Program-made: the position numbers and the translations under genes
Notes under the pieces: generated by a model
The model's database searches: none
The model's input: only the letters and a program-made list of their open reading frames with translations
What the model was told of the DNA's origin: nothing
NCBI GenBank assembly: GCA_005787565.1
Contig: SYAP01000349.1
Span: 1-41,387 of the forward strand
Direction: 5' to 3'
DNA length: 41,387 nt
Origin: Verrucomicrobiaceae bacterium
GTDB lineage: Bacteria > Verrucomicrobiota > Verrucomicrobiia > Verrucomicrobiales > Akkermansiaceae
Shown: positions 6,794 to 30,087 of the stretch, piece by piece
Position numbering within the stretch: position 1 is the first letter of the stretch
Layout of the letters: each line of letters starts with the position of its first letter

Positions 6794-6840
6794 GTCACAA
6801 AACCGTCACACAGCGTCACTTCTGGGGGCGGGTTTGTCAC
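6794..6840 (+). promoter_or_regulatory. Pho-box-like array of phased GTCAC repeats
   Basis: Four same-strand GTCAC words start at 6794, 6805, 6815 and 6836, spaced 11, 10 and 21 bp, so all lie on one face of the helix. The first pair reads GTCACAAAACCGTCAC. PhoB sites are direct repeats of a CTGTCA-type word every 11 bp with an A/T-rich spacer, and this matches closely. The array ends 42 bp before the TonB receptor start. The nearby porin gene belongs to the phosphate-selective family. Control by a PhoB/PhoP-type regulator is inferred; no binding data can be read from the sequence. Confidence 0.6.
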
Positions 6841-6882
6841 ATTACGAGGAGCGGGCTGGCGCGTGCGAAGCGTGTGCGGTGA

Positions 6883-9800
6883 ATGATTTCCATGGTTTTA
6901 CAAGTGATCAGATGGTTGCCGCGAGGCGTTTCGAGTCCGGTGGGGGTTCCGCATTGGGGGTGGAGGATTGCGGCGTGGGTGCTGGTGTTTTGTCTGGGGA
7001 TGCCGACGGGTGGGGTGTCGGCGGCGGTTTCGTCTAACAGAGAGCGAATGGGTTCTGTTTTTGTTTGGAAGAAGCCGGCACCTTTTATGGTTAGCGGTGG
7101 GCGGTGGGAGCCATGGCGGGCGGAGGCTGGGGCGGGGTCGACGTTTTCCGAGCGGTGGCGGACGGCCTGGGCGGGGCGGGCGATTTCCGTGACGGGTGGT
7201 GGAGATGAGCGGTGGTCGCCTGCGGATTTGCAGTTGGTGACGACGCTGATGGAGCAGGAAGGAGACGTGCCAGCCGGTGGGTTGCCGATCGACCCGGCGG
7301 CGGGCGGGATCCCGGTGTTAGAGAATGTGGCGGGGAAGTGTGTGATCACTGGTGAGGTTTCCGACGCGGTGAGTCTGGATCCTCTGAAGGGAGCGATTGT
7401 GGACGTGATCGGGACGGGGCGGACGGTGGAGACGGATGCTGCGGGGCGGTTCAGGATCGAGGGAATCGCTGCGGGGACTTATACGTTGGAGGCATCGATG
7501 CTTGGGTATTTCGCGGAGACATCGGTGGTGACAGCGATTGAGGCGCAGGCGGCTGATACGCGGTTCGGTTTGAGAGAGAAGCCGTCGGATGATTCAAGTG
7601 AAGAGTATACGTTGGAGGAAGAGACGGTGGTGGGGGAGTATCAGGGGGATTCGGGGGGGGATTTGTTCATCGATCTCGAGCTGACCAATACGGTCATTTC
7701 GGGCATTTCTAAAGAGGAGTTCACCAAGACGGGGGTGAGCGATGCGGCGGGGGCAGTTGGGAAGATCTCGGGGGCAAACAGTGTGGGTGGGAAATTCGCT
7801 GTGGTTCGTGGTCTTGCCGACAGGTATGTCACGACGCTATTCAATGGTGCTGCCATTTCTTCAGCCGATCCGTCCCGCAAGGCGGTGCAATTGGATATCT
7901 TTCCGACGGTTGCACTTCAGGGAATTGACATCAACAAGACCTACCTTCCGTCTCTTCCCGGGGATTTTGGCGGTGGAACGATCCAGATCCAGTCCTTGAA
8001 CATTCCGGACGAGCGAATCATCGAAGCCAAATACAAGATTGGCTGGAATAGCACGCTTGATGACCGGATGTTGGTTCATCCGAACCGGGATCTTGGATTT
8101 TGGGGTGATGTTGATGACCGGATTCCGGATGCACTTTTATGGAATCTCGACCCATCGGGAAATCCGATCTCCTTTGATGCTGGCGGGCGCCGAGTCGCAC
8201 CTCCGCTGAGCACTAACAACGCCAACAGCAACAATAATCCACAACAGCAACAGGCTGCGATCAACGAAGCACTGCGCCAGCAGGCCGCGGCCGACTCGTT
8301 GTTGCCGCGTGTCAGGAGTCTTGAAGCTTCCCAGTCGTGGCTTCCGAAGGTTGAGAAGCCCGAGGCACCACAGAGTTTCTCGCTGGTGTATGGTGACCGC
8401 TTTGAAATTGCCGATGGTGTGACTGCCGGTTTCATTGCAGCGTTTCAGCATGCTACGAGCGATCAGGTGAATCCAAATGGTGCGGAAGCCCGTCTCACCG
8501 CACCGGCACGATCATGGATTGAGGAAAGCTATGCACGCGAAGTGGACTGGTCGGCATATCTTGGTGGTGGTGTTCGAATCGGAGAGAAACATGAGATCTC
8601 ATTGACTTACTTCAAGAAGCACATAGCGACCGACAACATCACGCACGGAACGGATTTCACTGTTGATGGGGATCGATTCGGGGATTTCGCGAACAATGCA
8701 AACATGATCGCACGCTATGGTGCGTCAGCAATCCAGAAGCGGGAATTCTGGACTATTGATCCAGTGATTCGTGAAACTGAGATCATGCAGATCGGAGGTC
8801 GTCACTCCAATGACATAGGTACCACCCTCACCTGGCGGCTTACCGACTCAAATGCGAGCGAGTCCCGCCCGCACACTTCCACTTTCAATACCTCGCTTCT
8901 TGATTTCACGGATCCTCTGATTGCCGCGGAGGCGGCGCGAAGCGCTGACTTCATCTACAACCCATTCCTCGGGAGGATTGCGACGATTGAGCACGATTTC
9001 GTCTCCAGTGCGGCGATTGCAGAATTGAATTCGTTTCGTGAGACACAGCTGATCGACGAGGAGTCCACCGAAATGTCTGGTGAGATCCGGCAAGTGATCG
9101 CATTGACGGATGAAGGTGAGAAGGGTCGGAGATTCGAATTCTCGTTTGGCGGGAATGATATCAAAAAGACACGGATCCAGTCGGGTCGGGTCTATCAACT
9201 TCGGTTTGATGATTGGGAGAATGCGACGAACAGGAATCCCCCGGCTTGGTGGAACAATCAGCCCGGGATCGAGCCATTCTCGCCAGCCAGACCTTTGGCG
9301 CGCAATACCTTTCCGGATGGTTCCGCGTTGCCTGACGGGTTCCGATCCTTAGGTGAATTTCTTGCTGCGAATCCCGGTGAAATCGCCAAATATTTCAACG
9401 GCTATGCCAGCGAGCAAACCGGAAGTGTTCCCGGCACCGGCGCTGGTCCCCGTGCCTCGCAGTACATACGCCCGGATGCGCCCTATTATCTGAATGGCAG
9501 CGGGCTTGAGATCCGCAACGTGGATTCCGAACTCCAACTGCAGGGGATTTACGCCTCGGGAACCTATCACGGAGATTACTGGCGTATCGGGGGTGGGGGG
9601 CGATGGGAGTCTGAAAACAAGTCCTACGAGGTAGCGGCATTACCGCTCAACAGCCTTCAGGAGAATTCACCAGCGCGGTTCGGCACCCTTTCGACCGAGG
9701 TTTTCATTCCATCGCTTTATGGTGGAATTGATATCATTCCTGAAACATCGACGCTGAATGTGGCTTGGTCGCGGACCGTTGCCCGTCCTACGTTTCATGA

Positions 9801-10548
9801 GTTCCTGCCAATCGAGTCGGTGGATCAGGACTCCGGCATTGTCCGGCTTGGTAATCCAAACCTGCTTGAGACCAGCATTGAAAACCTCGACGCTTCCCTA
9901 GACTGGAAATACGAGGACAGCCTCTCCGGCCGATTTTCAGTCTTCCACAAGCTACTTGAGGATCCGATCGTCGTTGTTCAGCGCTCGGACAACGCCACTG
10001 GAGCGAATTTCACCACGTATCAAAATGGTGACCGGGGTTCCATCAATGGCATTGAGTTCGAGGCTGCCTGGCGACATCCGGACAGCCCATTTTCCCTTAG
10101 TGGAAACTACACCTTCATCGACTCGTCGCTGCTTTACAAGGTTAACTCTGGCGATCCGCTCAATCCGCTGTCCCTTGACACCCGGTTTCCCTATCAACCG
10201 AGCCAGATCCTGAACCTGACGCTTGGTTGGGAGCCAGAAGACAGCCCGTGGAGCGCCTTCCTTACCGCGAATTTCACCGATGAGTATCCAACGATTCTTC
10301 GCAGCGACCCTGCCGCCTATGACGTTTGGCTGAAGCCGCAATTCACACTCGATCTTGTAGTCTCGCGCCGAATTGAGATGGATTTCATGACCGGCATCCT
10401 CACCCTCGGCGTTCGCAACCTATTGGACGGAGACTTGCAATATGAGTATCGCGGAGGATCAGGCGGCGACGATCCGCTGGATGGCCTCTCCTATTCCGAC
10501 GAGGGGCCCGGCCGAGGCGTCTATATGGAACTCAAAACCGAGTTCTAA
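6883..10548 (+). CDS. TonB-dependent outer-membrane receptor with carboxypeptidase-regulatory-like domain
   Basis: The 1,221-residue protein imports an unknown ligand across the outer membrane, powered by TonB. The signal segment is at about residues 27-48 (WRIAAWVLVFCLGMPTG) after an unusually long N-terminus; ATG at 6892 is an alternative start. Residues about 150-235 are a CarboxypepD_reg-like beta-sandwich (VITGEVSDA...GRFRIEGIAAGTYTLEA). YTLEEETVVGEY at about 240-251 resembles a TonB box. The plug follows with GGKFAVVRGLADRYVTTLFN, and the barrel runs to the aromatic C-terminus (MELKTEF). An Asn/Gln-rich stretch at about 442-465 probably sits in a loop. Codon use changes near 7670: before it codons mostly end in G, after it they are balanced. 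The gene is first in the locus behind the GTCAC array. Confidence 0.93.
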   Translation: MISMVLQVIRWLPRGVSSPVGVPHWGWRIAAWVLVFCLGMPTGGVSAAVSSNRERMGSVFVWKKPAPFMVSGGRWEPWRAEAGAGSTFSERWRTAWAGRAISVTGGGDERWSPADLQLVTTLMEQEGDVPAGGLPIDPAAGGIPVLENVAGKCVITGEVSDAVSLDPLKGAIVDVIGTGRTVETDAAGRFRIEGIAAGTYTLEASMLGYFAETSVVTAIEAQAADTRFGLREKPSDDSSEEYTLEEETVVGEYQGDSGGDLFIDLELTNTVISGISKEEFTKTGVSDAAGAVGKISGANSVGGKFAVVRGLADRYVTTLFNGAAISSADPSRKAVQLDIFPTVALQGIDINKTYLPSLPGDFGGGTIQIQSLNIPDERIIEAKYKIGWNSTLDDRMLVHPNRDLGFWGDVDDRIPDALLWNLDPSGNPISFDAGGRRVAPPLSTNNANSNNNPQQQQAAINEALRQQAAADSLLPRVRSLEASQSWLPKVEKPEAPQSFSLVYGDRFEIADGVTAGFIAAFQHATSDQVNPNGAEARLTAPARSWIEESYAREVDWSAYLGGGVRIGEKHEISLTYFKKHIATDNITHGTDFTVDGDRFGDFANNANMIARYGASAIQKREFWTIDPVIRETEIMQIGGRHSNDIGTTLTWRLTDSNASESRPHTSTFNTSLLDFTDPLIAAEAARSADFIYNPFLGRIATIEHDFVSSAAIAELNSFRETQLIDEESTEMSGEIRQVIALTDEGEKGRRFEFSFGGNDIKKTRIQSGRVYQLRFDDWENATNRNPPAWWNNQPGIEPFSPARPLARNTFPDGSALPDGFRSLGEFLAANPGEIAKYFNGYASEQTGSVPGTGAGPRASQYIRPDAPYYLNGSGLEIRNVDSELQLQGIYASGTYHGDYWRIGGGGRWESENKSYEVAALPLNSLQENSPARFGTLSTEVFIPSLYGGIDIIPETSTLNVAWSRTVARPTFHEFLPIESVDQDSGIVRLGNPNLLETSIENLDASLDWKYEDSLSGRFSVFHKLLEDPIVVVQRSDNATGANFTTYQNGDRGSINGIEFEAAWRHPDSPFSLSGNYTFIDSSLLYKVNSGDPLNPLSLDTRFPYQPSQILNLTLGWEPEDSPWSAFLTANFTDEYPTILRSDPAAYDVWLKPQFTLDLVVSRRIEMDFMTGILTLGVRNLLDGDLQYEYRGGSGGDDPLDGLSYSDEGPGRGVYMELKTEF

Positions 10549-10574
10549 CATTGGGGCGAAATGGACACACAATC

Positions 10575-10590
10575 CCGCTTATCCAAGCGG
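10575..10590 (+). other. Intercistronic hairpin
   Basis: CCGCTT at 10575-10580 pairs with AAGCGG at 10585-10590 around the loop ATCC, in the 113-bp gap between the receptor and the beta-helix gene. No T-run follows, so transcription termination is not predicted. It could protect or delimit the receptor mRNA. Confidence 0.35.
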
Positions 10591-10661
10591 CAGTCCCGGT
10601 TAACTTCGCTGCGCATGCACCAGTGGAACCCATCCGCTGAACGCAACCATAACGCAACATC

Positions 10662-13600
10662 ATGAAACTGAAACGCACTCGCCTCACGGCGCTATTCGCC
10701 ATCGCCGCCACCGTGCCGCTGGCAGTTCACGGCGCGATTATCGACGTCGTCGCCACGCAGACCGTCAACACCACACCGTTCGGGGTCAACATTGACGCAA
10801 TCACTGCGGACACCACCTGGACCAGTGACAACATCTATATCCTCAAGGACAAGGTTTTTGTCACCAACGGTGCCACCCTAACAATCGAGCCAGGAACAAA
10901 GATCTACTCCACCCTCGACAACAAGGGCACACCTTCAAACAACGATGACGAGTTCGGGTCGCTGGTGATCACTCGTGGAGCGAAGATCAACGCTTGTGGA
11001 ACGGCGGAGAGGCCGATCGTCTTCACGACGATTGACGAGCTTGAAGCCGAGACCCAAACCGACTACGATGGTGACACTTTTGTTGCCGAGGCTCCCACCG
11101 CCACCACATCCGGCCGTTGGGGGGGAATTGTGGTCCTTGGCAGCGCTCCGATTGCTACTTACACCACGGGTCCGACCAATGTTGGAGAGAACCGCATTGA
11201 AGGATTCCAGCCTGCCGCTTCCGCCGACCTTGATGGGGATGGCCGCTCCGACGTCATCGAATACGGTGGTGCGATCGCATCCGACGACTCGGGTAGTTTG
11301 AAATATATTTCCATCCGCCACGGCGGATATGTCTATGCCGGTTCCAATGAGATCAACGGCCTCACTCTTGGTGGAGTTGGAAATGGCACTGAAATCAGCC
11401 ACATTGAAGTGTTCGCGAACAAGGATGACGGAATCGAGTTTTTCGGTGGTACGGTCAACACCAGCCACATTCTCCTAGCCTTCAACTTTGATGACAGTTT
11501 CGACATCGATGAAGGATACAACGGCACCAACCAGTTCTGGTTTGCCGTGCAGAATCCGCTCGAAGGTGACGGAACCACCCGTGCCTATGACAATGGCGGC
11601 GAGTGGGATGGTGTTACCGGCACTGTTGGCAACTATGCGGACAATTCCGCGCCAACGATTTACAATGCTACTTTTGTCGGTTCAGGCACCGGAGTGGATG
11701 CACTCTATTCCGGTTCAGTTCCATCGGGCAACGATAAGGGAAACAATGCGATCTTTCTCGATGACCGCTTCAAAGGGATGATCTATAACTCCGTTTTCGA
11801 TGACTTCGCACGGGATGTGATCGGCTCCGCCGGTGATGGCCCCGGGACAGGACTCACTTTCGCCCACAACACCGTCGGTCGTTTCGGCGGAGGCACTCCT
11901 GGGACCAACCTGAGCTATGTTTCGGATTCAGGTGCGGCCAACACTTTCTTCAATGGTTCCGGAACACCGATCAATGGCAACAGTGACGGCGGTGTTGATC
12001 CCCTCTATTCGGCTTACGAGCGCAATAGCGCACTTGAGCTCGAAGTGCTTGATCCACGTCCTTCCAGCTTGTCGCCGCTTTGGGTCACCAACGGTGCAAC
12101 CCTTCAAGCCGGGGCTCCCGTGACGGTAGACTTCCGTGGTGCTTTCGGTACTGAGAACTGGGCAGCCGGATGGACCCGCTATGATCAGCTCGGATACCTC
12201 ACCTCGACTGTTGATGTCGTCGCGGAGCAGACCGTCAACACGACTCCGTTCGGTGTGAACGTTGATGCGATCACGGTTGATACCACATGGACTGCGGACA
12301 AGGTTTACATTCTCAAGGACAAGGTATTCGTCACGAACGGCGCCACCCTCACCATCGAGCCAGGTACGAAGATCTATTCCACCCTCGATAACAAAGGCAC
12401 GCCATCGAACAACGACGACGAGTTCGGTTCGCTTGTTATCACCCGTGGTGCGAATATCATGGCTGAAGGCACTGCCGAATCACCAATTACCTTCACCACG
12501 ATTGATGAACTCGAAGCCGAGCGTCGTGTGGATCTTGATGGTGACGGTGTGGTGGCCGAAATGCCGACGTCGAACACTTCGGGCCGTTGGGGTGGTATTG
12601 TGATTCTGGGCAGCGCTCCGATCGCAACCTACACCACCGGACCGACCAACGTTGGAGAGAACCGCATCGAAGGGTTCCAGCCTGCCGCTTCCGCCGACCT
12701 TGATGGCGATGGCCGCTCGGACGTGATCGAATACGGCGGTGTGAACTCGGCTGACAATTCGGGTGTGCTGAAATACATCTCCATCCGCCATGGCGGCTAT
12801 GTGTATGCCGGTGCGAATGAGATCAATGGTCTCACACTTGGTGGTGTCGGCAATGGCACGGAAATCAGTTATATCGAGGTTTATGCGAACAAGGACGACG
12901 GGATTGAGTTTTTCGGTGGTTCGGTGAACACGAGTCACATCGTCCTTGCCTTCAACTTCGATGACAGCTTCGACATCGACGAAGGATACAACGGCATCAA
13001 CCAGTTCTGGTTTGCCATTCAGAATCCGCTTGAAGCCGATGGCACCACCCGTGCTTACGACAACGGCGGCGAATGGGACGGTGTCACCGGAACGATCGGG
13101 GATTATTCCACCAACTCCGCGCCCACCATTTACAATGCCACCTTCATCGGTACCGGCACCGGAGTGGATGCGGCCTATTCGGGATCCGTCCCCTCAGGCA
13201 ATGACAAGGGTAACAATGCGATCTATATAGACGACCGCTTCAAGGGGAAAATCTACAACTCCGTGTTCGATGATTTCGCCCGCGATGTGGTGGGTTCCGC
13301 AAGCGATGGTCCGGGCACCGGTCTTGTGTTCGCTCACAACACCGTCGGTCGCTTCGGTGGTGGCAGCTATACCGGCACGAATGCCAGCAACCTCAGTTAC
13401 GTTTCCGACAGCGGTGCGGCGAACACGTTCTTCAACGGTTCCGGCTCGCCGATCAACGGCAACAGCAATGGTGGTGTGAATCCCGCATACACGGTCTATG
13501 AGCGCAATGAGGACTTCACGCTGGCCGCGATCGATCCGCGTCCTTCGAGCAACTCGCCGCTTTGGGTTGGGTCTTCGAAGCTCCAGCCCGGAGCTCCGGT

Positions 13601-14027
13601 TGCCACGACGTATCGTGGTGCATTCGGATCGGAAAACTGGGCTGCGGGATGGACGAAGATGAGCCAAACCGGAGAGCTTCTTGGCCTTGCCCCAGCTTCG
13701 GGTTCGGGTTCAGGCGAGCCTCCGTTCGCGGATGTTGATGCTGACGGGATTTCCGACACCCTGGAAGCGTCGCCTGCGCTTGCCGGTCTTGGTTTCACCG
13801 TTGGTGCGAACAATGCCGCGCTGTTTGCGGACCTCTACACGGAGACTTCGATCCAGGACCTTCGCGGCACCGGCTTGATTCTTCAGAAGACCGGCAGCAA
13901 TGTGAATCTGACGCTCGACATCGAGTCGTCCGACACGCTCAGCGGCTGGGTTCCTGCGGGCACCATGACCGGCACGATCACCGGAGTTCCGGAAGACAAG
14001 CAGTTCTTCCGCCTGAAAATCGATTGA
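10662..14027 (+). CDS. Secreted beta-helix protein with two tandem domains of about 490 residues
   Basis: The 1,121-residue protein begins with a signal peptide (residues 1-25, ending VHGA). Two near-identical units follow, residues 28-515 and 518-1008. Each opens with DVVA-QTVNTTPFGVN and contains VFVTNGATLTIEPGTKIYS, ADLDGDGRSDVIEYGG, FFGG-VNTSH and FNFDDSFDIDEGYNG. The 'VTNGATLTIEPGT' opening and the Gly/Asn/Asp-rich rungs indicate a right-handed parallel beta-helix; DxDGDGxxD motifs suggest calcium binding. Residues 1009-1121 hold another DVDADGISD motif and a C-terminal segment typical of secreted verrucomicrobial proteins (SGW...QFFRLKID). It sits directly after a TonB receptor and before the energising genes, so a surface role in substrate capture or hydrolysis is inferred. 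No catalytic residues are recognisable. Confidence 0.85.
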   Translation: MKLKRTRLTALFAIAATVPLAVHGAIIDVVATQTVNTTPFGVNIDAITADTTWTSDNIYILKDKVFVTNGATLTIEPGTKIYSTLDNKGTPSNNDDEFGSLVITRGAKINACGTAERPIVFTTIDELEAETQTDYDGDTFVAEAPTATTSGRWGGIVVLGSAPIATYTTGPTNVGENRIEGFQPAASADLDGDGRSDVIEYGGAIASDDSGSLKYISIRHGGYVYAGSNEINGLTLGGVGNGTEISHIEVFANKDDGIEFFGGTVNTSHILLAFNFDDSFDIDEGYNGTNQFWFAVQNPLEGDGTTRAYDNGGEWDGVTGTVGNYADNSAPTIYNATFVGSGTGVDALYSGSVPSGNDKGNNAIFLDDRFKGMIYNSVFDDFARDVIGSAGDGPGTGLTFAHNTVGRFGGGTPGTNLSYVSDSGAANTFFNGSGTPINGNSDGGVDPLYSAYERNSALELEVLDPRPSSLSPLWVTNGATLQAGAPVTVDFRGAFGTENWAAGWTRYDQLGYLTSTVDVVAEQTVNTTPFGVNVDAITVDTTWTADKVYILKDKVFVTNGATLTIEPGTKIYSTLDNKGTPSNNDDEFGSLVITRGANIMAEGTAESPITFTTIDELEAERRVDLDGDGVVAEMPTSNTSGRWGGIVILGSAPIATYTTGPTNVGENRIEGFQPAASADLDGDGRSDVIEYGGVNSADNSGVLKYISIRHGGYVYAGANEINGLTLGGVGNGTEISYIEVYANKDDGIEFFGGSVNTSHIVLAFNFDDSFDIDEGYNGINQFWFAIQNPLEADGTTRAYDNGGEWDGVTGTIGDYSTNSAPTIYNATFIGTGTGVDAAYSGSVPSGNDKGNNAIYIDDRFKGKIYNSVFDDFARDVVGSASDGPGTGLVFAHNTVGRFGGGSYTGTNASNLSYVSDSGAANTFFNGSGSPINGNSNGGVNPAYTVYERNEDFTLAAIDPRPSSNSPLWVGSSKLQPGAPVATTYRGAFGSENWAAGWTKMSQTGELLGLAPASGSGSGEPPFADVDADGISDTLEASPALAGLGFTVGANNAALFADLYTETSIQDLRGTGLILQKTGSNVNLTLDIESSDTLSGWVPAGTMTGTITGVPEDKQFFRLKID
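10743..12203 (+). repeat. Beta-helix domain, tandem copy 1
   Basis: This is the first copy of the internal duplication, paired with 12213-13685 at an offset of 1,470 bp at its start and 1,479 bp at its end. The 9-bp drift comes from small in-frame indels near GRFGGG and SPLWV. By eye the two protein copies are roughly 80-90% identical, while third codon positions differ widely. That indicates an old duplication kept under protein-level selection, with some stretches (around 11180-11240 against 12650-12710) still nearly identical in DNA. Confidence 0.85.
12213..13685 (+). repeat. Beta-helix domain, tandem copy 2
   Basis: This is the second copy of the duplicated domain, beginning DVVAEQTVNTTPF. 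Compared with copy 1 it has SYTGTNASNLSYV where copy 1 has TPGTNLSYV, and GSSKLQPGAPV where copy 1 has TNGATLQAGAPV. It joins directly to the short Gly/Ser linker SGSGSGEPP and the C-terminal region. Confidence 0.85.
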
Positions 14028-14071
14028 TCGTCACATGGAGCCCCCGGGCTCCTGACGAAATTGTCACAAGG

Positions 14072-14111
14072 GGGTCGTCGGCAAAAGCCGGCGGCCCTTC
14101 TTTTCTTCTCC
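14072..14111 (+). terminator. Attenuator-like intrinsic terminator inside the locus
   Basis: The arm at 14072-14082 pairs with 14087-14097 around an AAAA loop. The stem is 11 bp and includes two G-U pairs. A pyrimidine tract (TTCTTTTCTTCTCC) follows. A smaller hairpin, GGAGCC-CCCG-GGCTCC, precedes it at 14038-14053. Lying 45 bp after the beta-helix stop and before the DUF3450 start, it could make the receptor and beta-helix mRNA more abundant than the downstream energy genes. Two GTCAC words at 14030 and 14063, 33 bp (three times 11) apart, flank the small hairpin and might be a weak second Pho-like site. Confidence 0.5.
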
Positions 14112-14122
14112 CCGTCCACGCC

Positions 14123-14902
14123 ATGCGCCACCTTTTTCTAACAATCACACTCGCTTCCAGCCCGCTTGTTCTGGCCCAGGAAGTCAAACCGACACCCACC
14201 GAGGAGCTTCGCACAACTGTCCGCGAGTGGGTGGAAACGATGCGGAAAATCCAGCAGGAAGAGAACGATTGGGCACGCGATCAGGAGGTCCTTGCGAACT
14301 ACAAGGAGGGCCTTGAGAAGGAGATTGCGGGGCTCAAGGAGCAGATTGCTGCGGCGAAAACGAGAAAGGACGGCATCGACAAGGAATCGGCGGACAAGCT
14401 TGCTGAGCGTGACCGCTACGTGAGCGCCAAGGTTCGTTTCACCGAACTGGTGCGACAGATCGAAGAGAGCGCAGCCGAGATTACTCCCCTCGTTCCTGAG
14501 TCCCTGTTGTCGGACCCGAAAGTCGCACAGGCCATCGAAGACATGAAGCGAGACCTTGCGCTGCCTGTTGAGAAGCGCGGTGAAGGCCTGTCCAAGCGTC
14601 TGCTCAATGTGATCAATCTTGTTTCCGAGTCCGAGAAGTTTCAACAATCCGTTCATTTGAGGTCGGAGCTTCATCGGGATTCGAATGGCAAGGAGTTCAA
14701 CATGCAGGTCATCTATTTTGGTCTGGCGATCGCTTATGCGGTCAATGACGAGGGAACTTTCGCTTTGGTGGGTCAGCCAGGTCCTGAGGGATGGAAGTTT
14801 GAAGAAAAGTCCGAACTCGCAGCTGAGATTCTCAACCTGGTCATCACCACCCGCGGCGACAAAGACGCTGCATTCATTCCTCTTCCATTTTCCAAGCCAT
14901 GA
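14123..14902 (+). CDS. DUF3450 periplasmic coiled-coil protein of the TonB module
   Basis: I chose ATG 14123 because it yields a signal peptide (MRHLFLTITLASSPLVLAQ); the longer frame runs back through the terminator hairpin. The mature protein, about 240 of 259 residues, starts with a long charged coiled coil at about 20-125 (NYKEGLEKEIAGLKEQIAAA). A globular region follows with VYFG/IYFGLAIAYAV-like strands and FALVGQPGPEGW. DUF3450 proteins are typically encoded just before TtpC-like ExbB, ExbB, ExbD and TonB in marine Gammaproteobacteria, including the Vibrio TonB2 cluster, and the same order occurs here. Its molecular role is not established; a periplasmic accessory to energy transfer is inferred. 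Its stop overlaps the next start by 4 bp. Confidence 0.85.
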   Translation: MRHLFLTITLASSPLVLAQEVKPTPTEELRTTVREWVETMRKIQQEENDWARDQEVLANYKEGLEKEIAGLKEQIAAAKTRKDGIDKESADKLAERDRYVSAKVRFTELVRQIEESAAEITPLVPESLLSDPKVAQAIEDMKRDLALPVEKRGEGLSKRLLNVINLVSESEKFQQSVHLRSELHRDSNGKEFNMQVIYFGLAIAYAVNDEGTFALVGQPGPEGWKFEEKSELAAEILNLVITTRGDKDAAFIPLPFSKP

Positions 14903-16353
14903 TCCCCCGTCTATTCGCAATTACCTTGTTCGGCCTTGCAAGTCTGGATGCCGCTGGGCCTGTTGAACAGGCCCGCGCCGACCTCGATAAGGCTGTGGTT
15001 GAGCTCGGCCAAACACAACGCGAGTATGCCGACTTGCGACGTGCCTTGTATCGGGACATCAACCGTCTCGATGATGAAGCGTTGACGCTCGCGAAGGAGC
15101 TCAAGTTGCTCCAACAGTCGGAAGAGTCGGTTACGGCGGATTCACGCCGGCTGGATTCCGAGATTGAAGCGCGCAAGACGGATTTCAATTATGCGGCTGG
15201 GATTCTAAACCAGTATTCGAAGTCCCTAGTAACCCGGCTCCATCCCGCCGAGAACCAGATCTATCTTGAGGCGATTGAGAAGCTCGATCAGGCGGCCGGT
15301 TCCAAGGCAGACAATCCAACGGGCGAATTGGAGGAACGAATCAAGGTGCTTGAATTGGGATTGTCACGGATCAAGGCTAGCGCCGGCGGACACCGGTTTG
15401 AAGGGAAAGCACTTCGGAATGGCAGCGAGTCGCTTGAAGGGACTCTTCTGGTTACCGGCCCATCGGTCTTCTTCTCAGCCAAATCGGGCGGCTTCGAAGG
15501 AGTTGCGACATTCGCCGAAACGGGGACCGCATTGCCCAATGTGGTATCGGTGGGCGAATCCAACGGTGCCATCGCTTCCGCAGTTACCGGAGAGGGAGGA
15601 AGCCTTCCTTTCGATGGGACCATGGGAAAGGCGCTTCTTACCGCAGAGGCTCAAGACTCCCTCATGGAGACGATCGAGAAGGGCGGACTGGTCGGTCACT
15701 GCATCCTTTTGCTCGGTGCGATCTCGCTGATCATTACGGTGTTCAAGTTTTTCGAGATCACACGTTTCCCTGTTCCCGATCGCCGCGCCATCAACGCCAT
15801 TCTGGACCTGCTTGTCACCGGTGACCACGCCGGCGCGAAAAAGGCGGCAGCCTCACTCAAAGGCATGGCCGGAGAGGTGGTGAAGGTTGGTGTGGAGCAG
15901 TTCTATCAGAAGAGGAAGGTGCTTGAGGAGACGATTTACGAAAAGCTGATAGATGTGAAGCCCCGTCTCGAGCGCTTTCTGCCATTCCTTGCCCTGACAG
16001 CCGCGACCGGGCCTTTGCTCGGGCTTCTGGGGACGGTTTTGGGGATCATCAAGACGTTCCAGGCGATGGTTATTTACGGAACCGGCAACGCCAAGAATTT
16101 CTCCGCCGGTATTTCCGAAGCACTGATCACCACGGCCGAGGGTCTGGTAGTCGCCATTCCGGTGCTGATCCTACATGGGCTCATGAAGGGATTGGCCAAG
16201 GGCAAAGCCGGAGAAATTGAAAGCATTGCAATCGCGCTGGTGAACGGAACCAGTGAGCTAGACAAGAATCACAAGCCGATCGTCACAAGCAGAAGTCCGG
16301 ATGATGACGACGATGACTTCGTGCTCAATGCGGTCCAATCCAACCCTGCCTGA
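14899..16353 (+). CDS. N-terminally extended MotA/TolQ/ExbB protein (TtpC-like)
   Basis: The 484-residue protein has a signal peptide (residues 1-18) and a periplasmic extension of about 240 residues. The extension has a coiled coil (about 20-95) and a beta-rich part (about 165-235). A MotA/TolQ/ExbB channel domain follows with membrane segments at about 262-285 (GHCILLLGAISLIITVFKF), 357-385 (TGPLLGLLGTVLGIIKTF) and 405-430 (ALITTAEGLVVAIPVLIL). The extension before the first helix is the hallmark of TtpC, the fourth component required by Vibrio TonB2 systems. It is proposed to couple the proton-motive ExbB-ExbD complex to TonB through the periplasm. The acidic tail DDDDDDF is noteworthy. 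It is co-translated with DUF3450 (ATGA overlap) and sits 5 bp before the second ExbB. Confidence 0.9.
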   Translation: MIPRLFAITLFGLASLDAAGPVEQARADLDKAVVELGQTQREYADLRRALYRDINRLDDEALTLAKELKLLQQSEESVTADSRRLDSEIEARKTDFNYAAGILNQYSKSLVTRLHPAENQIYLEAIEKLDQAAGSKADNPTGELEERIKVLELGLSRIKASAGGHRFEGKALRNGSESLEGTLLVTGPSVFFSAKSGGFEGVATFAETGTALPNVVSVGESNGAIASAVTGEGGSLPFDGTMGKALLTAEAQDSLMETIEKGGLVGHCILLLGAISLIITVFKFFEITRFPVPDRRAINAILDLLVTGDHAGAKKAAASLKGMAGEVVKVGVEQFYQKRKVLEETIYEKLIDVKPRLERFLPFLALTAATGPLLGLLGTVLGIIKTFQAMVIYGTGNAKNFSAGISEALITTAEGLVVAIPVLILHGLMKGLAKGKAGEIESIAIALVNGTSELDKNHKPIVTSRSPDDDDDDFVLNAVQSNPA

Positions 16354-16358
16354 TCGCG

Positions 16359-16970
16359 ATGCCCGCTCCATTGGTCGATGCCTGGAACATGTTCGTCGTT
16401 GGTGGCGACATCATGTGGATGCTTGGAACGGTGGCCCTGCTTTTGTATTGGGCGGCCTTTGCGGCCTGGGGATATGTTGCCCGGGGCAATCTCAACGCCA
16501 AGCATGCGGAGAGGTGGGAGTCATGGATCCGCAATCCGGAATTGGCAGATGGCAGGCTGGGTGAGGCCTTGCGCTACATCCTGCATGGTCCGAGGCTCAG
16601 CGTCCGGATCGTGAACCGGCGTTTCAATGAAGTGAAACTTCAGATCCTCTCCGCGATTGACCGGCGCTTGCTCGTGGTCAACACGCTGGTGGCAGCCGCT
16701 CCACTTTGCGGCCTGCTGGGAACGGTCACAGGGATTTTGGGCATGTTCAGCGCGCTTGCCAGCGGAGGCGGCAAGGCCGGCATGACCGGAGTTGCTAATG
16801 GAATGCAGGAAGCGCTCATCACCACGCAGGCCGGGCTTACCATCGCCCTTCCGGGCCTGTTCATCGCTTTGATTGTGAAAAACAAAAGAGACGAGATCGC
16901 GTCGTCGCTCGTCCGGCTTGAAAGCCTGATCCTGACGACACTCTTTCCCAAAGACAACCCCGTACCCTGA
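16359..16970 (+). CDS. exbB: ExbB-type proton channel subunit
   Basis: The 203-residue protein has the usual three membrane segments: about 20-45 (MWMLGTVALLLYWAAFAAW), 105-135 (LVAAAPLCGLLGTVTGILGMF) and 150-175 (ALITTQAGLTIALPGLFIAL). The LLGTV-GI-MF and Q-GL-IALP signatures match MotA/TolQ/ExbB proton channels. Together with ExbD it uses the proton gradient at the inner membrane to energise TonB. It lies between the TtpC-like protein and ExbD with gaps of 5 and 7 bp, so all are surely co-transcribed. The N-terminal region is short, unlike its upstream paralogue. Confidence 0.93.
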   Translation: MPAPLVDAWNMFVVGGDIMWMLGTVALLLYWAAFAAWGYVARGNLNAKHAERWESWIRNPELADGRLGEALRYILHGPRLSVRIVNRRFNEVKLQILSAIDRRLLVVNTLVAAAPLCGLLGTVTGILGMFSALASGGGKAGMTGVANGMQEALITTQAGLTIALPGLFIALIVKNKRDEIASSLVRLESLILTTLFPKDNPVP

Positions 16971-16977
16971 TTCCATT

Positions 16978-17388
16978 ATGTTCGGCAAAGGCCTAGGAGA
17001 AGAAGCGGATGAACCGGTTATCATTGACCTTTCATCCATGATTGATTGCGTGTTCATCCTGTTGATTTTCTTCATTGTCTCAACCGTTTTCGTGGAGGAG
17101 ACGGGGGTTCAAGTGAACAAGCCGGATGTCGGTTCCAGTGCAAGCGCCTTGGACAAGAATTCCATCCTTCTTGCCGTCACCTCGGAAGACAAGGTCTTCT
17201 ATGGTGGTGAGAGCATTGGCATCCAAGGGGTGATCGGGAAGATCAAACCTCTCCTAACAGAGACACCCGACATGCCGGTCATCATCCAGGGTGACAAGGA
17301 TTCGACCCACGGCATCGTACAGCAGGTCCACGGGCAGGCGTTGTTGGCAGGCGCGATGAAGGACAGGATCTCGATCTCCACGAAATAG
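16978..17388 (+). CDS. exbD: ExbD-type biopolymer transport protein
   Basis: The 136-residue protein has one N-terminal membrane segment (about 22-42, FILLIFFIVSTVFVEE). The conserved proton-pathway aspartate is Asp23 in SSMIDCVFI. The periplasmic domain that follows (ILLAVTSEDKVFYGGESI, then VIIQGDKDSTHG) is the ordinary ExbD/TolR fold. It forms the inner-membrane motor with the ExbB proteins encoded upstream. The size is typical for the family. The gene is 11 bp from tonB. Confidence 0.94.
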   Translation: MFGKGLGEEADEPVIIDLSSMIDCVFILLIFFIVSTVFVEETGVQVNKPDVGSSASALDKNSILLAVTSEDKVFYGGESIGIQGVIGKIKPLLTETPDMPVIIQGDKDSTHGIVQQVHGQALLAGAMKDRISISTK

Positions 17389-17399
17389 AAGATATTGCG

Positions 17400-18053
17400 A
17401 TGGCACGGCATCTTTACAAACCCCCGAAAGGCACGCTGTCAGCGGTGTTCGCCATCATTGGTGGAATCATCGCCACAGTTGCCGTGTTTGTCGCCATCCC
17501 GCTTTCACAGAAACTGAATGACATCTTGCAGTCATCCGCTCCGCCGCCGCCGGAGTTGACGGTCGAACCTCCAGAAGAGACTTCGTTCGAAGCGGAGCCA
17601 CCTCCGGAAGAACCAGAGGAAGAGCCGGAGCCCGAGGAGATGGTGGAAGAGGCATCCGATCTCGATCTGGGGCTTGAGGTTGCCGATCTTGGCACGGGCA
17701 CGGGTGGCGGGTTCATCATGGAGATTCCGAAATTCGGGATGAAGGGTGGTGATGATCCGTTCGGTGGCGGTGACATGGATTCCGCGCCGGTGCCGACACG
17801 CAAGACGCCTCCGATTTATCCTAGTTCGTTGTTAGGCAAGGGGATTGGTGGCCGGGTGCTTGTCACCTGCGTGGTGGATGCCTCCGGAAAAGTGGTTTCC
17901 ACGGCGATCAAGCAATCTTCCGGTCACCCGGACCTTGATAAGGCCGCGATCAATGCCGTCAACAAGTGGGCCTTCAGGCCTGGCACCAAGGGCGGCAAGA
18001 AAGTCAAATCCACCTGCGTCGTTCCATTCACCTTCGAGGTGAAGAAAAACTGA
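17400..18053 (+). CDS. tonB: TonB energy-transducing protein
   Basis: The 217-residue protein has one membrane anchor (about 14-35, AVFAIIGGIIATVAVFVAIP), a Pro/Glu-rich periplasm-spanning linker (PPPPELTVEPPEE, then EPEPEEM) and a C-terminal TonB domain. The domain includes PIYPSSLLGKGIGGRVLVTC, VDASGKVVSTAI, SSGHPDLDKAAINAVNKWAF and RPG. It contacts the TonB box of outer-membrane receptors and transmits energy from ExbB/ExbD. The short acidic linker fits TonB2-type proteins rather than the long Lys/Pro-rich E. coli TonB. Two Cys in the C-terminal domain (VTCVV and STCVV) could pair. The obvious partner is the receptor encoded at the head of the locus. Confidence 0.93.
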   Translation: MARHLYKPPKGTLSAVFAIIGGIIATVAVFVAIPLSQKLNDILQSSAPPPPELTVEPPEETSFEAEPPPEEPEEEPEPEEMVEEASDLDLGLEVADLGTGTGGGFIMEIPKFGMKGGDDPFGGGDMDSAPVPTRKTPPIYPSSLLGKGIGGRVLVTCVVDASGKVVSTAIKQSSGHPDLDKAAINAVNKWAFRPGTKGGKKVKSTCVVPFTFEVKKN

Positions 18054-18064
18054 AATTTACCGTC

Positions 18065-19504
18065 ATGTTCCGAATTCTAACCATCTCGATTGCGTTATCA
18101 CTCGCCGCCTCCGCCGAGCGGATCATTCCTCCGTCCAACCTGTTCCGTGATCCGGATTTCGTGAAGGACTTTGTGGGGAGTTACGGGTTTCTTGCAGATG
18201 TTGAGCCGAAGGTGAGTTCGGACGAGCAGACGTTGTTGGTGACGGTGCGCGAGATGTTCGAGAAGTCACGTTTCCGTGAAGCGGAGCAGGAGATCGTGCG
18301 GTTCATCAAGGAGACTGAAGCGCCGACCGATCCCGAGAAGCAGCCTGCGGAGATCAGTCCGGCGTTGGTGTTTGTGCTTGGCAACCTGTATTTCCAGGCG
18401 GATCGGGCGGATGAGGCGCGGCGTGCGTTTCTAGAGGCGATCCGGCGTTATCCGCGGTTCCGGAGAGCGCATACGAACCTCGCGTATTTGTATATCTCGA
18501 AGAACCAGACGGACGAGGCTTTGCCGATGCTGCAAAAGGCGATCGAGTTGGGGGAGAATTCCAGTCGCGCCTACGGCTTGTTAGGGTATTGTCATCTTCT
18601 GAAGAAGAACGCGTTGGCGGCGGAGAACGCGTACCGGCAGGCGTATTTGCTTGATCCTGCATCGCGGGACTGGAAGTTGGGGCTGGCGCAAACGCTGATG
18701 GCGCAGGAAAAGGCGGCGGAGGCGTCCAATTTGCTGGGATCGTTGATCGAGGAGAATCCGAACGACAAGCAGCTCTGGCTGCAACAGACTAACGCGTTGC
18801 TCTCGATGGACCGGAAGGATGAGGCGGCGGTTAATCTGGAGATCCTGCGGCACAAGAATCTGGCCGATGAGGGGAATCTCAATTTGTTGGGGAATCTCTA
18901 CATGGACCGTAGTGAGCCGCAGCTAGCGTTGTATGCATATCTCGCGGCGATTGACAAATCGACGACCTTTGATGTCCAGCGGGCACTGAAGTCGGCGAGG
19001 ATTCTTGTGGATTATGGATTTCCCGAAAAGGCGGAGGAGCTGATCGCGGCGATCCAGAGCAAGGCGGGAGACAAGATTTCTCCAGCGGACCGCACGCGTT
19101 TGCTGTTGACTGAGGTCCGCGCGGCGCAGGCGGCGGGTCAGACGGACCGGGTTGGCAATTTGTTAGACAAGCTGGTGGAAATCAACCCCGCGGACGGAGA
19201 GGTTTTGTTGGAGCTGGCGCGGCACAAGGACAAGCTGGCCCGGGATGAGGAGGATGAGGAGAAGCGCAAGGAGTGGGTTGTGGAGGCGCGGACCCACTAT
19301 CAGCTTGCGGTGCGCTCGGAGGCGGTGGCGTATCCGGCGAATCTGGCATACGGGCAGATGTTGGTGCGTGAGCAACGTTACACGGAGGCCTTGCCGGTTC
19401 TTCAGGCTGCGTTGGCGCTGAAGAAGAGTGACAGTCTTGAGCAGTATGTGAGCCGCGTCCGCCGGGCTGCGGATCGGCAAGAGGACAAGAAAGCCAAACC
19501 CTGA
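18065..19504 (+). CDS. Secreted TPR-repeat protein of the TonB module
   Basis: ATG 18065, 11 bp after tonB, gives a signal peptide (MFRILTISIALSLAASAE) and 479 residues. Tetratricopeptide repeats fill about residues 85-330, with clear units such as LVFVLGNLYFQADRADEARR and HTNLAYLYISKNQTDEALP. A Glu/Lys-rich helical region and one more repeat (ALPVLQAALALKK) follow. TPR proteins are a regular last member of TtpC/TonB2 clusters. A periplasmic scaffold linking TonB, receptor and accessory proteins is inferred. From about 18140 onward codons return to the G-ending pattern of the flanks, marking the right edge of the balanced-composition block. Confidence 0.88.
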   Translation: MFRILTISIALSLAASAERIIPPSNLFRDPDFVKDFVGSYGFLADVEPKVSSDEQTLLVTVREMFEKSRFREAEQEIVRFIKETEAPTDPEKQPAEISPALVFVLGNLYFQADRADEARRAFLEAIRRYPRFRRAHTNLAYLYISKNQTDEALPMLQKAIELGENSSRAYGLLGYCHLLKKNALAAENAYRQAYLLDPASRDWKLGLAQTLMAQEKAAEASNLLGSLIEENPNDKQLWLQQTNALLSMDRKDEAAVNLEILRHKNLADEGNLNLLGNLYMDRSEPQLALYAYLAAIDKSTTFDVQRALKSARILVDYGFPEKAEELIAAIQSKAGDKISPADRTRLLLTEVRAAQAAGQTDRVGNLLDKLVEINPADGEVLLELARHKDKLARDEEDEEKRKEWVVEARTHYQLAVRSEAVAYPANLAYGQMLVREQRYTEALPVLQAALALKKSDSLEQYVSRVRRAADRQEDKKAKP

Positions 19505-19512
19505 AACCAGAT

Positions 19513-20823
19513 ATGAACGCTACCCGGATCGGTTGTTTGCTCATCCCGCTTTTTGTCTCATCGCTTGAAGCGAATGAGGCGCTGGATGTCCTGGAGGGGA
19601 AGAAGAAGGCGTCGGACATCGTGTTGCCACCGCCACCGGAGGGGAGTCCCGCGGCGTTGGCGGAGAAGGAGCAGGAGAAGCCGGTGTATGTGGATTCGGG
19701 CTGGGCACCGAGTCCGTTGGATCCGTTGTGGGCGCGTGTGACGTTGTTTCAAGATCTGGAGAATCCCTACATTCAGGAACTGGCGATCCGTGGATTTTTC
19801 GATTGGCGGATCAACTCCGGCGACGCGCATGTCAGGGGAGCGCCGGATGTGGAAATGGATGGCAGCCGGACCCGCCGTGCCCGGCTTGGCGCGCGGATCC
19901 GTGCGTTCCGGAATACGGACATTGAAGTGGATTATGAAATGGCCGGGTCGGGCCGGAACTCGGGATTGGAGCGGCTGAGCGCGCGGACTGAAGTTCTAAC
20001 GGACACCGGGGTGACTTATGGGAAGTTCCAGCCGGAGATTGGCGGGGAGTCGAGGATTTCACCGGAGTTCCTTCCGTATCCGGAGCGTTCGGCGCTGACG
20101 AATCTGGTGGTTCCGCCGTCCACGTTGGGATTGCGGATTGACCGCAAGTCGGGCGATTGGGATTATGCTCTGGGTTGGTTCACGGGTGGGGATCCCGACG
20201 ACATTCCGGAGGTGCGTGGGGATGGGTTTGTCACGCTGGGTCTAGGTCGGACGATGGTTGATTCATTTGAGGGTAAGACCCAGCGCACGCGTTGGCATTT
20301 TGATTATCTTCACAACTTCGATGCGGGGCGTTCTGGTGCGATTCCGGGTTACGACATCGCGGGCCGGAGGTCGGCGAATGGCGGGCAGTTGGTGACGGAG
20401 AATCCGGCGTTCCGGCATTTGATCTCGACGGGTTTCACTTTGGAGAGGGATCGTTTCAAGTTTCTGGCGGACTTCATGATCGCAAAGGGTGACTCGGCGG
20501 TGTGGGGGTTGACGATGGCTCCGGAGTGGTGGGCGATTCCCGGGACGTTGAAGATCGTGGGGCGTTATCATTATGCGGGTTCGGATGATCCCGGAGCGAT
20601 TGTTGCCGGTGTTGGGAGCAGTTCGGATCTGCGGTTTGACGATTCGAACTTCCTGATCGGGAATGAGTATCACTCGTTCTATCTCGGAGCGAACCTTCAT
20701 CTCTATCAGGACCGGATGATTCTCTCTTCCGGGGTGGAGTCGATCACATTCAGTGATGAGAATGGCGGCGGGTTCGATACCGACGCCTGGATCTGGCACA
20801 CGGGCGCGAGGGTTTCCTTCTGA
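19513..20823 (+). CDS. Phosphate-selective porin O/P (OprO/OprP) family protein
   Basis: The 436-residue protein has a signal peptide (about 1-20) and a Pro-rich spacer. A 16-strand-type barrel domain of the porin O/P family follows: RRARLGARIRAFRNTDIEVD, then TDTGVTYGKFQPEIGGE, DWDYALGWFTGG and GNEYHSFYLGANLHLYQDRM. It ends in Phe, as outer-membrane barrels do. Pseudomonas OprP and OprO are phosphate- and polyphosphate-selective channels induced by phosphate starvation. Specificity cannot be read from the sequence, and many verrucomicrobial members have unknown ligands. It is encoded 8 bp after the TPR gene, so it belongs to the same transcript. Confidence 0.85.
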   Translation: MNATRIGCLLIPLFVSSLEANEALDVLEGKKKASDIVLPPPPEGSPAALAEKEQEKPVYVDSGWAPSPLDPLWARVTLFQDLENPYIQELAIRGFFDWRINSGDAHVRGAPDVEMDGSRTRRARLGARIRAFRNTDIEVDYEMAGSGRNSGLERLSARTEVLTDTGVTYGKFQPEIGGESRISPEFLPYPERSALTNLVVPPSTLGLRIDRKSGDWDYALGWFTGGDPDDIPEVRGDGFVTLGLGRTMVDSFEGKTQRTRWHFDYLHNFDAGRSGAIPGYDIAGRRSANGGQLVTENPAFRHLISTGFTLERDRFKFLADFMIAKGDSAVWGLTMAPEWWAIPGTLKIVGRYHYAGSDDPGAIVAGVGSSSDLRFDDSNFLIGNEYHSFYLGANLHLYQDRMILSSGVESITFSDENGGGFDTDAWIWHTGARVSF

Positions 20824-20862
20824 TTTCCCCAACAACTATTCCAAAGCAAGCATCCAGCAGTC

Positions 20863-21456
20863 ATGAAAATCAAATCGCTCATTTTACTTTCGTTCCTGTC
20901 GATCCAGCCGCTGATGGCGGTGTCCTTCGATGCGGAGAATTTCGGTGCCAGTCTGAACGGTTGGGACAAGAAGCGGACGGCGAACTACACGTTCACGGAG
21001 GCGACTTACCGGACCCATGCGCCGGCGATCACTCCGACGCCATCGCGTGGGATTTTCCTGTCGATGCAGGTGGATTTGCGATCGGGGATGGGGAATGCGG
21101 CGGTGTGTCATTTGCATCTGACCTTCTCCTCGGCTGGGACTCTTGAGAGCGCGCAGATCAAGGGGCTAGTAGGAAAGCGGGATATCGACACGGGATTGAT
21201 CCGCAGGCCGGAGGCACCGGTCGCGCCGCCGGTTGCTGAAGGTGCGGTTGCGGTGCCGGTGAAGCCGTTTCACGCGACGGATGAGCTGGTGGCTGAGCTT
21301 TTCACCAGCTTTGACGGCGAGATGAAGCGGATCAACGCCGCAGCCGAGGGCGAGAAGAGGGATCTGCTTTCCCGTCTATCAGGAAAGCCCGCTTTCGATC
21401 TCGGTGCGGGGTTGAGGCACAACCTGAATCTGGTTTTGCAGAACGTGCGCATGTAA
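20863..21456 (+). CDS. Secreted protein of unknown function at the end of the TonB locus
   Basis: The 197-residue product starts with a signal peptide (MKIKSLILLSFLSIQPLMAV). I recognise no family. An N-terminal globular part (NYTFTEATYRTHAPAITP, then GIFLSMQVDLRSGMGN) is followed by a Pro/Ala/Val-rich linker at about 110-130. A helical C-terminus (ELFTSFDGEMKRINAAAEG) comes next. It lies 39 bp after the porin gene in the same direction and is probably co-expressed. It converges on the leftward protease gene with a 16-bp gap and no visible terminator. Periplasmic location is inferred. Confidence 0.75.
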   Translation: MKIKSLILLSFLSIQPLMAVSFDAENFGASLNGWDKKRTANYTFTEATYRTHAPAITPTPSRGIFLSMQVDLRSGMGNAAVCHLHLTFSSAGTLESAQIKGLVGKRDIDTGLIRRPEAPVAPPVAEGAVAVPVKPFHATDELVAELFTSFDGEMKRINAAAEGEKRDLLSRLSGKPAFDLGAGLRHNLNLVLQNVRM

Positions 21457-23500: not shown

Positions 23501-24295
23501 TCATTCATCGGAGAGCGCCTGGCGGATGAAGGCGGGGCGGTTGGTGGTGATGCTGAGGGCACCGATTGTTAGAAAGGTTTTGGCGATGGCGGGATCATCG
23601 ACGGTCCAGCAGTGGTATTCGAAGCCGTGTTTTTTGAGTGGGGCGAGGAAGTCGGCTGTTAGGCGGGGATCTGCTTTTGAGGAGAAGCCGTCGGCGTGGA
23701 TGGTACGGAGGGTTTTGAGGATCTGGTCCATGGAGGGATCGAGGGGATTGGCTTTGCCGAAGCTGGAGAGCCAGAAGGCGCGGACGGTGCGGTCGCGTCG
23801 CTTGAGTTCGCGGAGGACATCGGCATTGAAGGAGATGACGGTGACTTGGTCCGGCTTGAGGCGGGCGGTGCGGATTTCCTGGAGGAGGGTGGGGATGATT
23901 TCCGGGCCGCATTTGATCTCGATATAGAATTTCTTTCCGTTAGGGACGGTGGCGGCGACTTCGGCGAAGGTTGGGATGCGGGTGTTGGTGAATTGAGGGG
24001 ACTTCCAGCGGCCGACGTCGAGTTGGCGGAGTTGTTCGAGGGTGCTGTGCTTGGCAATGAGTTTGGTGCCGGAGGTGCGTTGGGTGTCGGTGTCGTGAAG
24101 GCAGATGATTTTGCCGTCGCGGGTGAGGTGGAAATCGCCCTCGATGGCATCGGCGTTCTGATTCCAAGCGAGTTGGAAGGCAGGCAGGGTGTTTTCCGGG
24201 GCATCGTGCGAGGCACCACGGTGGGCGACGATGAGGGGTTGTGCGGCGAGGGGGGTGAGGAGGAGGAAGAGCGCGAGGGATTTGACGGAGTGCAT
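23501..24295 (-). CDS. Secreted glycerophosphodiester phosphodiesterase
   Basis: The 264-residue protein has a signal peptide (about 1-19, ending LAAQP) and a single GDPD barrel. The family signature is complete: AHRGASHDAPENTLPAF at 24-40 with the His25-Arg26 pair, Glu52 and Asp54 in AIEGDFHLTRDG, His67 in CLHDTD, and a later metal ligand in FYIEIKCG. It hydrolyses glycerophosphodiesters to glycerol-3-phosphate and an alcohol, probably in the periplasm. It is about 2 kb from the Pho-box-like TonB locus, which fits phosphorus scavenging, but it is on the opposite strand and has no visible Pho box of its own. Confidence 0.93.
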   Translation of the reverse strand: MHSVKSLALFLLLTPLAAQPLIVAHRGASHDAPENTLPAFQLAWNQNADAIEGDFHLTRDGKIICLHDTDTQRTSGTKLIAKHSTLEQLRQLDVGRWKSPQFTNTRIPTFAEVAATVPNGKKFYIEIKCGPEIIPTLLQEIRTARLKPDQVTVISFNADVLRELKRRDRTVRAFWLSSFGKANPLDPSMDQILKTLRTIHADGFSSKADPRLTADFLAPLKKHGFEYHCWTVDDPAIAKTFLTIGALSITTNRPAFIRQALSDE

Positions 24296-29663: not shown

Positions 29664-30087
29664 GGGATTGGGGATGTGTGAGGAGATGAATCATGAAGGC
29701 ATGATCATGCGTTCGGTGATTTCGGGCGAAGTGGTGATCCCATGTTCAGATCGCGTCGATGATGACTTCGTGAAGATATCGACTCATCCAATCAACAGGT
29801 GTCGGAAATGACATATCATGAATCGGTGATGGAGTATTAATCTTCCAGTTCCGTCACTTTAACCGGCATGAGGGAGTTGGTGTCATCGGTGTTTTAAATG
29901 ATGATTCTTCGGTATGTTCCGTGAGGGGTCTGAGGAGATATCGAGTGACGGATGCGTAACGTTCCGGAATTGTCACGAAGAGGATGGGACAGGTGACGGG
30001 AATGTGATGATGTGAAATTTGATCAGGTGCGATTTATCATCTTTATTTTCTGCGGAGCGTCTTTGGGAGACCCATTTTTATTATCTT
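29664..30087. promoter_or_regulatory. Divergent intergenic region, 424 bp
   Basis: This gap separates the leftward beta-strand-repeat gene from the rightward prepilin-like gene. It is clearly more A+T-rich than its surroundings, with TATTAATC, TTTTAAATGATGATT and TTTATCATCTTTATTTTC, so it should hold two divergent promoters. GTCAC or GTGAC words occur at 29853, 29944, 29974 and 29994 without helical phasing. I cannot assign -10/-35 boxes with confidence and see no RNA gene or ORF of note. Confidence 0.45.

Follow-up and report, generated by a model that had tools for sequence, protein, structure and literature searches.

A candidate phosphate-responsive locus joining a TonB receptor and beta-helix protein to a TonB2-type motor in a Verrucomicrobiaceae bacterium

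The window analysed here is a stretch of 41,387 nucleotides from a Verrucomicrobiaceae bacterium whose draft genome (4.03 Mb, 364 contigs) is 78% complete. It holds a locus of ten genes (positions 6883-21456), all on the forward strand and bordered by genes of the opposite orientation, for a methionyl-tRNA synthetase before it and a trypsin-like protease after it. The first gene (6883..10548) encodes a TonB-dependent receptor (PF00593, 3.8e-24; PF07715, 1.6e-5) with an N-terminal CarboxypepD_reg domain (PF13620, 9.5e-13), and the second (10662..14027) an exported tandem right-handed beta-helix protein of 1121 residues. Six genes for a TonB-type motor follow (14123..19504), then a porin gene (19513..20823) and, at the end of the locus, a gene for a small exported protein (20863..21456), conserved in a 17-member alignment and with no Pfam match. 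An earlier note on this DNA had described the same gene content, strand and order, and all ten genes were found as it stated. Two starts were corrected: the DUF3450 gene begins at the ATG at 14123, previously placed at a TTG at 14024, and the gene for the exported TPR protein begins at the ATG at 18065, previously a GTG at 17966, from which ATG its product has a signal-peptide-like N terminus. With the DUF3450 start so moved, the gap behind the beta-helix gene is 95 bp. The locus itself contains no gene for a phosphatase; about 2 kb past it, on the other strand, is a gene for a glycerophosphodiester phosphodiesterase (23501-24295).

Vibrio TonB2 systems have the gene order TtpB-TtpC-ExbB2-ExbD2-TonB2-TtpD (PMC6957404). 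The same six components occur in the same order in the window: a TtpB-like DUF3450 protein (14123..14902; PF11932, 1.1e-13), a TtpC-like extended ExbB with a long N-terminal extension and its PF01618 domain at residues 325-440 (14899..16353; 4.2e-26), ExbB (16359..16970; PF01618, 5.1e-20), ExbD (16978..17388; PF02472, 2e-20), TonB (17400..18053; PF03544, 2.9e-19) and a TtpD-like TPR protein matching several TPR families (18065..19504; best 3.7e-20). Judged by its genes and their arrangement in one cluster, the motor is of the TonB2 type, and the TtpC-type assignment made earlier was right. In Vibrio vulnificus, TtpB, TtpC and TtpD are all essential for TonB2 iron uptake; the Vibrio system is iron-regulated and serves siderophore uptake (PMC6957404), whereas the window locus is preceded by a phosphate-type box. 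Among relatives the motor varies. Nine loci carry a divergent TtpC/ExbD set, with no separate ExbB detected in them, and keep the same receptor, beta-helix, TPR and porin genes, an apparent motor swap; in seven other loci the motor operon has two ExbD genes in a row.

The porin has no Pfam or NCBIfam match, PF07396 included at E values up to 10, and no direct sequence match in the PDB. It is related to the pst-linked Porin_O_P protein of the same genome, a member of PF07396, with 22% identity over its length (E 4e-15). Its structural model matches best the Pseudomonas phosphate and polyphosphate porins OprP and OprO (2o4v, 4rjw and 4rjx), with Z of 29.4 for OprP (2o4v) and 28.9 for OprO; beyond this pair the highest value is 24.6. 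The homology and the fold together bear out the earlier assignment to the OprP type, at a sequence identity to OprP and OprO of only 12-13%; no sequence-profile match to OprP was obtained, and the residues of the OprP arginine ladder could not be aligned to the porin by sequence profile.

The beta-helix protein consists of two domains (residues ~24-512 and ~513-1004) and a C-terminal region (~1020-1121). Its AlphaFold model is a right-handed beta-helix (pLDDT 82) that aligns with known beta-helix proteins at a VIA-align Z of about 22; there is no direct sequence match in the PDB, and the nearest solved folds, at 10-16% identity, are tailspikes, alginate lyases and epimerases, a pectate lyase and polygalacturonases. 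Right-handed beta-helix folds are common to many functions. Each domain conserves an acidic motif, NxDDGxExFGG, with a further DD 21 and 22 residues on, which is retained in 76 of 77 cross-phylum copies. Polygalacturonases have a similar spacing of their catalytic aspartates, a likeness to be taken as a lead only, because one turn of the helix is about that long. The duplication noted earlier is real in this protein, but it is not a defining feature, since relatives have one, two or three domains. The closest named relatives are from Akkermansiaceae. The C-terminal region (13719-14024) recurs on other large proteins in five related genomes and, over its ~100 residues, nowhere else in the 78%-complete draft genome of the organism itself; it is possibly a sorting domain.

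The family to which this protein belongs is assigned by its neighbourhood. Caulobacter crescentus makes the surface lipoprotein ElpS (Cc0170) when starved of phosphate; the elpS gene adjoins genes for type II secretion and the TonB receptor gene cc0171, reported as constitutively expressed (PMC2996285). The window protein has a homologue, matched with an HHalign probability of 100%, at a locus of the same kind (L164), where a receptor gene and gspCDEFG stand beside the beta-helix gene in a layout identical to that of the Caulobacter elpS locus. In Flavobacterium johnsoniae, the lipoprotein FI is the most induced gene product upon phosphate depletion and the most abundant exoprotein, and the adjacent TonB-dependent transporter is also induced; FII, encoded in the phoBR operon, is likewise induced by phosphate depletion, and the authors relate both proteins to ElpS and to polygalacturonase (PMC8115612). 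In the Flavobacterium PUSIII and PUSIV loci, a transporter with the same domains (PF07715, PF13715) stands beside an exported protein of polygalacturonase-like fold (PMC8115612). The likeness of the window protein to ElpS and FI is drawn from synteny, from the L164 homologue and from these published descriptions, and places the window system, most likely, as a variant of the ElpS/FI kind with a motor and porin of its own. There are differences as well. ElpS is a lipoprotein and FI and FII are Bacteroidota lipoproteins, in whose description DUF3450 is not mentioned (PMC8115612), whereas the window protein is a tandem of two domains without a lipobox, and a lipobox-like motif occurs in only one of the 28 members of its own family; the pair in Caulobacter goes with type II secretion genes, that in the window with an OprP-like porin and a motor of the TtpB/C/D kind. 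On its sequence the window protein is called here an ElpS relative and not an ElpS lipoprotein, and the missing lipobox leaves the surface position proposed for it in the earlier note with no evident anchor.

Common to the Caulobacter pair and the window is a beta-helix-type exported protein with an adjacent TonB receptor, and this adjacency holds in all own-family loci with flanking sequence and in most cross-phylum loci. So inseparable a pair could suggest that receptor and motor serve to export the beta-helix protein, or to display it at the surface, and import nothing, a reading that would also suit the type II secretion genes that follow the pair at elpS-type loci (L164; PMC2996285). TonB receptors, however, are generally importers, and in Caulobacter ElpS was still produced when cc0171 had been deleted (PMC2996285), so that we find export scarcely credible as the purpose of the machinery. 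A second alternative grants a phosphate regulon and makes the beta-helix protein a secreted factor that cleaves glycans or stimulates phosphatase, freeing phosphorus from polymers, with the receptor importing a glycan fragment or cofactor rather than a phosphorus compound. It draws on the nearest folds (alginate and pectate lyases, polygalacturonases and phage tailspike depolymerases), on the acidic cluster and on the rise in extracellular alkaline phosphatase activity when ElpS is overproduced, the only condition under which ElpS stimulated that activity (PMC2996285). Likeness of a beta-helix fold does not show function, however, and no gene for a carbohydrate-degrading enzyme is conserved in the own-family loci; we regard this second alternative as unlikely.

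Upstream of the receptor gene, GTCAC occurs at 6794, 6805, 6815 and 6837. The phased array described in the earlier note is present, but its conserved part is only the first pair, a Pho-box-like site of 16 bp with an 11-bp direct repeat (GTCACAAAACCGTCAC, 6794..6809, forward strand) that conforms to the pattern GTNAC-N6-GTNAC. The third and fourth copies (6815..6841) probably lie outside the site: the third was rejected as an operator element, since relatives carry CTTC at its distance, and the fourth lacks conservation. Of 26 homologous receptor genes, 24 have the pattern upstream, against 0.03 expected from dinucleotide shuffles (the exceptions are one upstream region truncated by a contig end and one that belongs to a doubtful start), and so have 24 of 28 pstS genes in the same genomes, against 0.1 expected from shuffles; the counts come from related genomes and are hence not independent events, so that the shuffle figures overstate the significance. 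Pairs of GTNAC upstream of the receptors are spaced by 11 bp in 28 cases and by any other distance in at most three. The base preferences of receptor and pstS boxes correlate (r 0.83), and a matrix made from pstS-promoter boxes, with that of the genome itself included, gives 6794 as the top-scoring site of the window when both strands are searched.

Elsewhere in the same genome, the pattern occupies the intergenic region of pstS and a divergent Porin_O_P (oprP) gene, and at 2212-2227 of L205 it occurs ~50 nt before the best phoB candidate, which a histidine kinase gene follows. The candidate response regulator scores 224.8 bits against TIGR02154, under the curated PhoB cut-off of 296.2, and for that reason its identity rests on context; the box before this PhoB-like gene suggests autoregulation. 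Taken together, these several independent lines lead us to infer that GTNAC-N6-GTNAC is a candidate Verrucomicrobial Pho box, though some other regulator of the OmpR family could recognise it in place of PhoB. A further Pho-box-like site lies outside the locus at 29945-30008 of the window (GTGACGGATGCGTAAC, plus GTGACGGGAATGTGAT at 29993), between a divergent autotransporter-repeat gene (24381-29663, reverse strand) and a large gene on the forward strand (30019-33663) whose product has a GspK-like N terminus.

By the score of the pst-trained matrix, CTGACGAAATTGTCAC (14052..14067, forward strand) comes second among the sites of the locus; it lies 71 nt upstream of the ATG of DUF3450. In 23 of 29 loci this position has a site with one mismatch or none, with one of the 23 probably spurious, against a background of 0.13 per region. 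Directly behind the box in the window, between the beta-helix and DUF3450 genes, is an intrinsic-terminator hairpin followed by a T-rich run (14068..14102, forward strand; -24.9 kcal/mol, z -5.6), an arrangement found in many of the loci, and 4 of 12 hairpin pairs show compensatory change across 11 loci. Since the second box and the conserved terminator, both overlooked in the earlier note, separate the beta-helix gene from the DUF3450 gene, two transcription units are probable, and a single operon is correspondingly weakened. The self-contained locus proposed earlier thus has all its genes in place but probably comprises a strongly made receptor/beta-helix unit and a motor/porin unit that likely has its own start.

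A gene-neighbourhood search of the kind suggested earlier found the order of receptor, beta-helix, DUF3450, TtpC and porin to recur among 145 genomes of the family, in 47 of which the beta-helix protein is present; in full, the recurring order is receptor, beta-helix, DUF3450, TtpC, ExbB, ExbD, TonB, TPR, porin and small protein. In four genomes (G024, G094, G031 and G144) the locus immediately adjoins pstSCAB-phoU, and in three of the four an OprP porin gene intervenes. The association extends to other groups: in an Alteromonas (L147) the genes run phoB, phoR, pstS, an oxygenase, beta-helix, receptor, DUF3450, TtpC, ExbB, ExbD, TonB and TPR, and among 76 beta-helix loci from Bacteroidota, Latescibacterota, Alteromonadales, Alphaproteobacteria, Opitutae and more, 14 have pst genes nearby, against about 0.3 expected from pstS density, an estimate that takes its pstS rate from other genomes. 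Further neighbours, from 100 proteins scanned, include OmpR-type regulators (6), metallophosphoesterases (5 and 4), polyphosphate kinases (3), Pit transporters (2) and Na/Pi transporters (2). The phosphate regulation suggested in the earlier note is made likely by the shared box, by the adjacency to pst and by the published induction of related pairs, and the locus is very probably switched on at phosphate shortage.

The same neighbourhoods bear on a third alternative, uptake of a metal or cofactor (iron, calcium or a lanthanide) that would be induced together with the phosphate response since phosphate minerals bind such metals. Motors of the Vibrio TonB2 type are known from siderophore uptake (PMC6957404), and the acidic cluster of the beta-helix protein could bind a cation. 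Set against this, the locus has no genes for siderophore or metallophore synthesis, and it is pst, oprP, phoBR and phosphoesterase genes that recur as neighbours across phyla; metal uptake appears very unlikely. As for a lanthanide in particular (PMC10875860), nothing in the locus is in its favour.

The reading we consider probable is that of a PhoB-regulated, TonB-energised outer-membrane system for the acquisition of a phosphorus-containing ligand. At low phosphate, PhoB would bind the GTNAC-N6-GTNAC boxes before the receptor and DUF3450 genes and drive two adjacent transcription units. The receptor and the exported beta-helix protein would act as a capture pair at the outer membrane, in which the latter binds, and perhaps processes, the ligand, and import via the receptor would be powered by the TonB2-type motor (DUF3450/TtpB, TtpC, ExbB, ExbD, TonB and TPR/TtpD). 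The OprP-like porin may offer a parallel route for small phosphate species, and PstSCAB would move phosphate across the inner membrane. Points against this reading are the lack of a phosphatase gene in the locus, the missing lipobox and, in Caulobacter, the constitutive expression reported for cc0171 and a phosphatase stimulation by ElpS seen only on overproduction (PMC2996285). We hold with somewhat more doubt than belief a broader version of this acquisition system, in which an ElpS-type beta-helix protein and a TonB receptor form a phosphate-starvation importer shared by several phyla, equipped with the six-part motor in Verrucomicrobia and Alteromonas, that takes in a polymeric phosphorus compound before the periplasmic Pst step.

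The combination of genes, put forward in the earlier note as possibly undescribed, is new in part. The pairing of receptor and beta-helix protein is known (PMC2996285; similar, PMC8115612), but the assembly of motor, porin and pst was not found published, and the open-access literature searched held no paper describing DUF3450 or TtpC with phosphate starvation. As far as this search goes, two things are new: in Verrucomicrobia the pair is combined with an OprP-like porin and a motor of the TtpB/C/D kind, and across phyla it is linked to pst. The novelty is narrower than first claimed, and the core idea stands, much better supported. For Verrucomicrobia, the box provides a candidate Pho box. 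In their respective hosts, ElpS and the Flavobacterium proteins FI and FII rank with the most strongly phosphate-induced proteins known; the finding of the pair beside pst in many phyla, and with a motor of its own in Verrucomicrobia and Alteromonas, turns the purpose of ElpS into a direct question of uptake. If the polymer importer proposed here is true, phosphatases and phosphate porins would be joined by a third general route.
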